Part shown: piece by piece, positions 15,737 through 61,802 of the stretch
Layout: the number at the start of each line of letters is the position of its first letter
How positions within the stretch are numbered: position 1 is the stretch's first letter
Origin: an uncultured Prevotellaceae bacterium
Lineage (GTDB): Bacteria; Bacteroidota; Bacteroidia; Bacteroidales; Bacteroidaceae
Assembly (NCBI GenBank): GCA_947168395.1
Contig: CAMVLT010000007.1
Coordinates: 57,269 to 121,268 of the forward strand
Length of the DNA: 64,000 bases
Direction of reading: 5' to 3'
Translations under genes and position numbers: made by a program
The notes under the pieces: generated by a model
What the model saw: only the letters and a program-made list of their open reading frames with translations
The model's database searches: none
What the model was told of the DNA's origin: nothing

Positions 15737-15802
15737 AAGACCCCCCACCCGACAGGCGAAGACCCCCCACCCGATCGAGCAAGACCCCCCACCCGACGAG
15801 GG
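15737..15802. repeat. Three 22-bp tandem units AAGACCCCCCACCCGA(N)6
   Basis: Units start at 15737, 15759 and 15781. Confidence 0.85.
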
Positions 15803-15833
15803 AATTCCTTGGCTCTATTCTGATAGACAATGT

Positions 15834-16157
15834 AAAAACTCCTAACCTCCTAACCCAACAGCTCAAAGTGCCTAATACACAGGGATTTATGGTGGTTAGG
15901 AGTGTGCCGAACTCCTAACCTACTCCTAACCCATCCTCTTTCACCTCTCCTCTCTTGCCTTTTACCTCTGCGAAGCATCTGGGTTAGGAGTTGGTTAGGA
16001 GTTTTAGAAACTCCTAACCTGCCTGAAACCACGATGTACAAAGCATTTGCGGGCCATTGGGTTAGGAGGTTAGGTGTTTTTTCGAAAAATAGGTTTACCC
16101 TACCTAAACCGGCAGTTTACCCTACCTAAACTGCCGGTTTAGTTACGGCAAACTGCC
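15834..16157 (-). repeat. Multi-hairpin intergenic element, copy C (inverted relative to A and B)
   Basis: Outer arms AAAC(T/A)CCTAACCTCCTAACCCA; inner hairpins GGTTAGGAGT..ACTCCTAACC; GTTTACCCTACCTAAAC units. Confidence 0.75.
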
Positions 16158-31406: not shown

Positions 31407-31588
31407 CTTTCCCGATGGAATCGGGTGCAGATTAGAGAGCCGGCAAAAGTGCTTAAGCACACCTGTGTGACCACCATGCTGGGCAAGCAGTTCTGCTTAG
31501 AGCTTGTGGATTCTGTGTACCAATATTCGGAACCGCCTTATTGAGGGTGAAGTTGTGGTTCTGGGGAAGAGTGAGGAGCGGGAGTTTG

Positions 31589-31917
31589 GGTAGGGTAAAC
31601 CCAGGGTTTACCGTAACTAAACTCTGGGTTTACCGTAACTAAACTCTGGAGGTTTGGAATTGGGGATAGAGAAAAAAAAGAATTTTCGAAAAACACCTAA
31701 CCTCCTACCTAAATCTCCGGAAAGCCCTTTGTGGATAGGGGTTTTGGCGAGGTAGGTGTTGGCTGAACACCTACCTAACACCTACCTTGATTGGTACCTT
31801 GAGGTGGTAGATAGAAATAGGTAGGTGTCAGGTAGGTGTTCAGCAAACACCTACCTGACGGAAAAGCCTTTGTAGAAAGGCATTCTGGAAGATTTAGGTA
31901 GGAGGTTAGGTGTTTTT
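31589..31917 (+). repeat. Multi-hairpin intergenic element, copy A
   Basis: 28-bp perfect outer inverted repeat 31689-31716/31890-31917; inner hairpins 31750-31776 and 31829-31857; TTTACCGTAACTAAAC units. Confidence 0.9.
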
Positions 31918-61294: not shown

Positions 61295-61388
61295 TTTCGG
61301 AACTAAAGAAAGGTTGCTCTTTTTTTGCTAAAATTACCTCAACTTTAGAAAAAAGCAAGATTTTCACAGGTGGTGGGCTCCGACGGGG

Positions 61389-61725
61389 ATTACCGTAACT
61401 AAACTCAGGGTTTACCGTAACTAAACTTTGGGTTTACCGTAACTAAACTCTGGAGGTTTGGAATTGGGGATAAAGAAAAAAAAGAATTTTCGGAAAACAC
61501 CTAACCTCCTACCTAAATCTTCGAAAATGCCTTTGTGGACTGGGGTTTCAGCGAGGTAGGTGTTAGCTGAACACCTACCTAACACCTACCTTGACTGGTA
61601 CTTTGAGGTGATAGATAGAAACAGGTAGGTGTCAGGTAGGTGTTTCGCAAACACCTACCTAACGGAAATGCCTTTGTAGAAAGGCTTTCTGGGAGATTCA
61701 GGTAGGAGGTTAGGTGTTTTTGCTT
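61389..61725 (+). repeat. Multi-hairpin intergenic element, copy B
   Basis: Near-identical to copy A at 31589-31917; three TTTACCGTAACTAAAC units. Confidence 0.9.
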
Positions 61726-61770
61726 ACGAGAAACTTTGCTAAACAAAGCGGACAATTCTTTGTAATCATC

Positions 61771-61802
61771 CCACTTTCGACGTTCTAGAACGTCGAAAGT
61801 GG
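61771..61802. repeat. 32-bp perfect palindrome
   Basis: CCACTTTCGACGTTCTAGAACGTCGAAAGTGG. Confidence 0.95.

Follow-up and report, generated by a model that had tools for sequence, protein, structure and literature searches.

A palindromic repeat of a Prevotella genome as a probable gene-less member of a helicase-bearing element family

Introduction

The window, a stretch of 64,000 nucleotides from an uncultured Prevotellaceae bacterium, contains a palindromic repeat (copy C) in which both sides of the inner stems differ from those of two related repeats (copies A and B). This locus raises the question of what such two-sided change records: selection on base pairing, as a sequence-only reading had proposed, or some other constraint on the repeated words. 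Rfam matches in the window consisted of one tRNA and nothing else.

Results

Organization of copy C and related repeats

Read on the minus strand from 16165 to 15829, copy C has the unit order that had been described for it, namely GTTTA..TAAAC units, TTTTTCGAAAAAACACCTAACCTCCTA, the inner hairpins, and the closing arm (Table 1). The outer arms, at 15834-15858 and 16057-16081, are 96% complementary, and the GGTTAGGAGT/ACTCCTAACC inner arms occur twice, at 15894/15911 and 15993/16010. The palindrome contains a word, W, ten times in the order >><>><<><<; the word reads CTCCTAACC, except for one copy that reads CACCTAACC. In copies A and B the words are CACCTACCT, CACCTAACC, and TCCTACCT, set in this order with nearly the same spacings; these two copies carry AGGTAGGTGTT/AACACCTACCT at the places where copy C has GGTTAGGAGT/ACTCCTAACC, confirming that both inner-stem sides differ. 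A scan of the 64-kb window for an inverted copy, a loop, a copy, and a second direct copy recovered copies A, B, and C only, and the same arrangement was absent from three shuffles of the window DNA. Copy C genuinely belongs with the palindrome copies at 31.7 kb and 61.5 kb, as a second subtype. About twenty palindrome copies occur in the same genome, divided between two similar subtypes, A-type and C-type, and there are others with CACCTCAT.

Table 1. Features of the three palindromes and their adjoining arrays (window positions)
Feature	Positions	Strand	Words and remarks
Copy C palindrome	15834..16081	-	Two half-sites, mirror images of each other, with five W words apiece; A5/T5 flanks
Far end of copy C, outer W1+W2 words	15839..15855	+	CTCCTAACCTCCTAACC
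Far-half inner hairpin of copy C	15894..15920	-	GGTTAGGAGTgtgccgaACTCCTAACC
Additional direct W copy, far half of copy C	15923..15931	+	
Additional direct W copy, array-side half of copy C	15982..15990	-	
Array-side inner hairpin of copy C	15993..16019	-	Inverted W, short loop, W (GGTTAGGAGTTTtagAAACTCCTAACC)
Array-side end of copy C, outer W1+W2 words	16060..16076	-	CACCTAACCTCCTAACC
Triplet array beside copy C end	16093..16153	-	17-nt palindromic GTTTA-N7-TAAAC units, 22-bp period
Triplet array adjoining copy A	31584..31644	+	
Copy A	31689..31917	+	A-type W (ACACCTACCT); site order >><>><<><<, identical to copy C
Triplet array adjoining copy B	61388..61448	+	
Copy B	61494..61721	+	A-type W

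The GTTTA-N7-TAAAC triplet lies beside copies A, B, and C and also occurs alone elsewhere in the genome. The palindrome-free triplets (L070, L074-L077, L079, L080, L083-L087) form units of ~190 bp bounded by the imperfect direct repeats TGTTAATTATTTTCGCA ... TGTAAATATATTTCGTA, and the 7-nt cores of their GTTTA-N7-TAAAC units are found in either orientation. At the palindromes of genome G055 (L185, L189, L197, L201, L202), an array with a period of ~22 bp (CAATACAATAACTATTG) replaces the GTTTA..TAAAC array, and the copies of genome G266 (L098, L105) have yet another array type. Within the window, three 22-bp tandem units (AAGACCCCCCACCCGA...) lie immediately past copy C on its far side (15737-15804), and a short near-perfect palindrome (CCCACTTTCGACGTTCTAGAACGTCGAAAGTGG) is located just past copy B (61769-61802). 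The end of the gene upstream of copy A, together with the array (31513-31677), has a 98.8% identical duplicate at L067 214-378.

Base pairing and concerted change of the words

As single-stranded DNA, copy C folds strongly (z = -9.3). The parts of an outer stem enclosing inner hairpins, as drawn in the sequence-only reading, are present; that drawing is not the sole possible fold, however, and the best one is a single long fold-back. Across 16 copies from the same genome, both sides had changed in 41 cells compared to 13.5 in shuffles, and covariation in the formal sense is present. Within the inner and outer helices of these copies, 12 pairs had both sides changed and the covariation score was twice the shuffled mean. 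A covariation test of the kind that had been suggested would likely have a positive outcome.

The inner-stem change amounts in essence to a single A-type/C-type split, with few evolutionary events behind it, and in nearly all of the 16 copies the same version of the word stands in both arms of an inner hairpin and in the direct repeat that follows. For 61 relatives with 114 hairpins in all, likeness was 0.908 between paired arms and 0.903 between neighbouring direct copies (Wilcoxon p = 0.50), and the five bases outside the word agreed at only 0.34. The spacer that separates the words has no further copies elsewhere, and its fold is only slightly better than that of shuffles (mean z -0.58). 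The two-sided change is thus real, but because words outside the hairpin partnership have changed in the same way, it is no evidence for pairing selection, and covariation specific to paired positions was not found. Concerted change of a single word explains the data without pairing.

We regard it as highly improbable that the palindrome is kept for a base-paired structure, whether RNA or extruded DNA, with the stem changes as compensatory mutations. Such a structure would fit the strength of the copy C fold, two-sided changes that exceed slid controls as well as shuffles, the strong stems in some spacer segments (for example, L120 and L295), and the A5/T5 flanks, which could serve as a bidirectional terminator; it is at odds with the equal likeness of paired and unpaired words, with a non-word spacer that folds only slightly better than shuffles, and with the tracking of W by a DNA-binding domain and by one residue in that domain, as described below.

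Helicase-bearing relatives

Half-palindromes enclose or adjoin genes at three places in the genome: a broken Rpn gene, a gene for a VapE-type helicase of 403 aa, and a nucleotidyltransferase gene. The Rpn (PDDEXK_2) gene at L049 1708-2678 is split into two frames and lies between two C-type half-palindromes, and the nucleotidyltransferase gene adjoins A-type ends. Among Prevotella genomes, 90 of 105 VapE-type helicase loci had locus-specific inverted flanking repeats (E<1e-6), compared to 1 of 105 in a control with swapped flanks; the remaining 15 had no detectable inverted flanks. Full-length elements are ~1.6 kb long and consist of one gene, encoding the ~403-aa helicase, between two inverted ends of ~110 bp. 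Their words differ widely (51 distinct W in 61 loci, including ACACCTACCT, ACATATAACAT, ACTATTAACAT, ATCCCTCACAT, and CTCCCTCCCGT), and the order of W2, spacer, inverted W, short loop, W, and W is retained across loci. Such a helicase was present in 38 of 120 genomes at the genus level (E<=1e-80); in an order-wide sample of 295 genomes, the short helicase was found at E<=1e-60 in the genome of the window only. Searches of viral contigs returned no close relative of the helicase and no match to the TIR string. The same genome also encodes long VapE-type proteins (L322-L325; open frames of ~690-730 aa), which are without comparable repeat-word flanks.

In the genomes checked, gene-less copies carry the words of helicase elements in the same genome. 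This is the case for numerous copies in G035 and G055, and in the genome of the window helicase 1 (L050) is the match for the A and B copies and helicase 2 (L209, W ACACCTCAT) that for another set. Residue 391 is N in L050 and H in L209. A full-length helicase copy of C-type (ACTCCTAACC) was not found in this genome, the assembly of which is 88% complete.

Helicase domains and recognition of W

A Pfam scan of the helicase gave matches to PF05272, PF19263, and PF12990, all helicase domains. The Walker A region (GxxGCGKT) is conserved, and the core matches the structure of PriRep1 bound to dsDNA (7pds; profile 2.6e-12, fold 2e-8). By profile and predicted fold, the protein is distantly homologous to staphylococcal PriRep1. 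An AlphaFold model built from 10 sequences was poor in the core, and one built from 46 sequences was better but remained weak at residues 151-267. Residues 329-399 form a predicted winged helix (pLDDT ~90).

When similarity of the protein was compared with similarity of W, allowing for the core, the partial correlation was 0.38 for residues 361-403 and 0.44 for residues 386-398 (0 of 1000 permutations); it was ~0 for residues 61-320, and residues 1-20 correlated weakly with W as well. Wing residue 391 goes together with the base after the conserved T of the word, with Asn accompanying A and His or Arg accompanying C (Asn with A, 29; Asn with C, 2; other residues with A, 1; other residues with C, 42; Fisher 4e-17). 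L252 and L259 are real exceptions to this rule, and the lone H391 with A (L291, W ATACCTCACT) is an apparent register error of the rule used to pick the base. When the tree was built with the C-terminal domain left out, each of the 12 changes at residue 391 mapped to a branch that also has a base change. Asn classically contacts adenine, and His and Arg contact guanine, which is C on the strand used here. At the level of sequence, W co-evolves with the predicted C-terminal winged helix, down to residue 391, and the helicase appears to read the stem words as binding sites. The partner helicase of copy C is predicted to have Asn391, because the copy C word has A after the conserved T.

Comparison with known systems

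The VapE-type AAA+ core is also that of SaPI Rep, PriRep1, and SCCmec Cch2, which are self-loading helicases that act at iteron origins. As at SaPI-type iteron origins, the gene for a VapE/PriRep-type AAA+ helicase has repeats beside it, which sequence co-evolution matches to the C-terminal domain. In SaPI Rep proteins this domain recognises iteron origins, short repeats beside their own gene (PMC7581432), and because of this the Prevotella element, for which such reading is predicted, may work like a SaPI Rep/origin pair. Unlike in SaPI Rep and Cch2 systems, the Prevotella gene has the repeats as inverted termini on either side, a primase domain and an integrase are absent from the element, and the chromosome contains many scattered copies without the gene. 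Phage satellites (SaPI/PICI) are island-sized and have an integrase, whereas the elements described here have one gene and ~1.6 kb.

One alternative is that the helicase and W constitute a chromosomal replication or silencing module, such as extra origins or a decoy for phages or satellites, rather than a mobile element. The PriRep1 and SaPI Rep relatives are indeed replication initiators at iteron origins (PMC7581432), and relatives of the helicase are found in phage and plasmid records, with about 30-35% identity among the matches listed. The repeats nevertheless look selfish: each genome has dozens of them, dispersed among unrelated flanking sequences, the one-gene units have inverted ends on either side, and subtypes turn over. 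We consider a module of this kind unlikely.

The gene-less copies also resemble MITEs, being short and having ends in common with an autonomous-looking element; the partner of a MITE encodes a transposase, whereas the partner here encodes a helicase only. BrickBuilt, a MITE of Porphyromonas gingivalis (PMC4596501), is likewise a short intergenic repeat with inverted ends, a 22-23 bp array, and ~20 copies per genome. Its ends match insertion sequences of the IS5 family, whereas the Prevotella element has a helicase as its partner and ordered multi-site arrays as its ends. REP/BIME sequences, which are associated with RAYT (Y1) proteins, are similar in being interspersed palindromic DNA with a short motif beside hairpins, but REP/RAYT systems have GTAG/GGAG-tagged hairpins and a Y1 transposase, while W varies from element to element. 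Helitrons share with the Prevotella family the combination of helicase-bearing elements and many gene-less copies; the HUH nuclease that is fused to the Helitron helicase is absent from the Pfam matches, and the Prevotella element has inverted multi-site ends.

We consider it quite improbable that an undetected insertion sequence or a REP/RAYT system has these copies as its ordinary MITEs, with the helicase gene as a common passenger. In favour of this view, the copies are short, dispersed, and intergenic, they have inverted ends, other cargo (Rpn, nucleotidyltransferase) is sometimes found between or beside those ends, and the genome has one Y1 transposase gene; systematic flanking by the ends, on the other hand, is confined to the helicase, the winged helix of which co-evolves with W. 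Rpn was rejected as a mobiliser, as only 1 of 30 Rpn loci, the one in the genome of the window, has such ends; at one other Rpn locus the inverted repeat is unrelated. A Y1/RAYT mobiliser was rejected as well, as the single Y1 transposase gene of this genome has no W within about 1.5 kb. A likeness to integron attC sites (ACCTAAC/GTTAGGT) was also discarded, the core sites being absent from most other W words.

Search for evidence of movement

No nuclease, transposase, or recombinase was found in the element, and no target duplication was seen at the junctions, the array-side boundary of which is uncertain. When 300 relatives were searched for an empty site corresponding to the copy A locus, the flanking genes were present, with no alignable intergenic site among the matches listed. 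The 165-bp duplicate at L067 ends near the junction of array and palindrome, but the DNA downstream is unrelated, and it was rejected as a clean empty site. A same-locus comparison of L050 and L229 suggests that one helicase copy had been inherited vertically rather than having moved.

Discussion

From the sequence comparisons, copy C is probably an empty, non-autonomous member of a rumen Prevotella family of helicase/iteron elements. Each end would be an ordered set of the 10-bp W (>><>>), providing iteron-like sites for the C-terminal winged helix of the helicase. Helicase rings may assemble on both inverted W arrays and open or extrude the palindromic ends, giving rise to an intermediate that would be resolved by host or other enzymes, which would do the cutting and joining; any DNA between two ends could thereby be copied or excised. 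The stem changes that had seemed compensatory would reflect binding sites changing in concert when the helicase specificity of an element lineage switches. We infer both the mobility of the family and this route.

A literature search of open-access papers returned no description of these elements, and they are possibly a new kind of mobile DNA. We suggest, tentatively, that they may form a new class of bacterial transposable element, in which an iteron-binding replicative helicase is the sole protein, its winged helix recognises the multi-site inverted ends by a changeable code (Asn391 for A, His391 or Arg391 for C), empty copies and passenger genes are mobilised in trans, and the host does the cutting and joining.

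An apparent signal of RNA or DNA structure at this locus gives way to one of protein-DNA co-evolution, which is a caution for covariation tests on repeats built of many copies of one binding word. The elements make up a widespread one-gene family without a visible nuclease, and their dozens of natural helicase/site pairs offer a ready test of how self-loading helicases choose their sites and of whether a helicase is by itself enough for DNA to spread.
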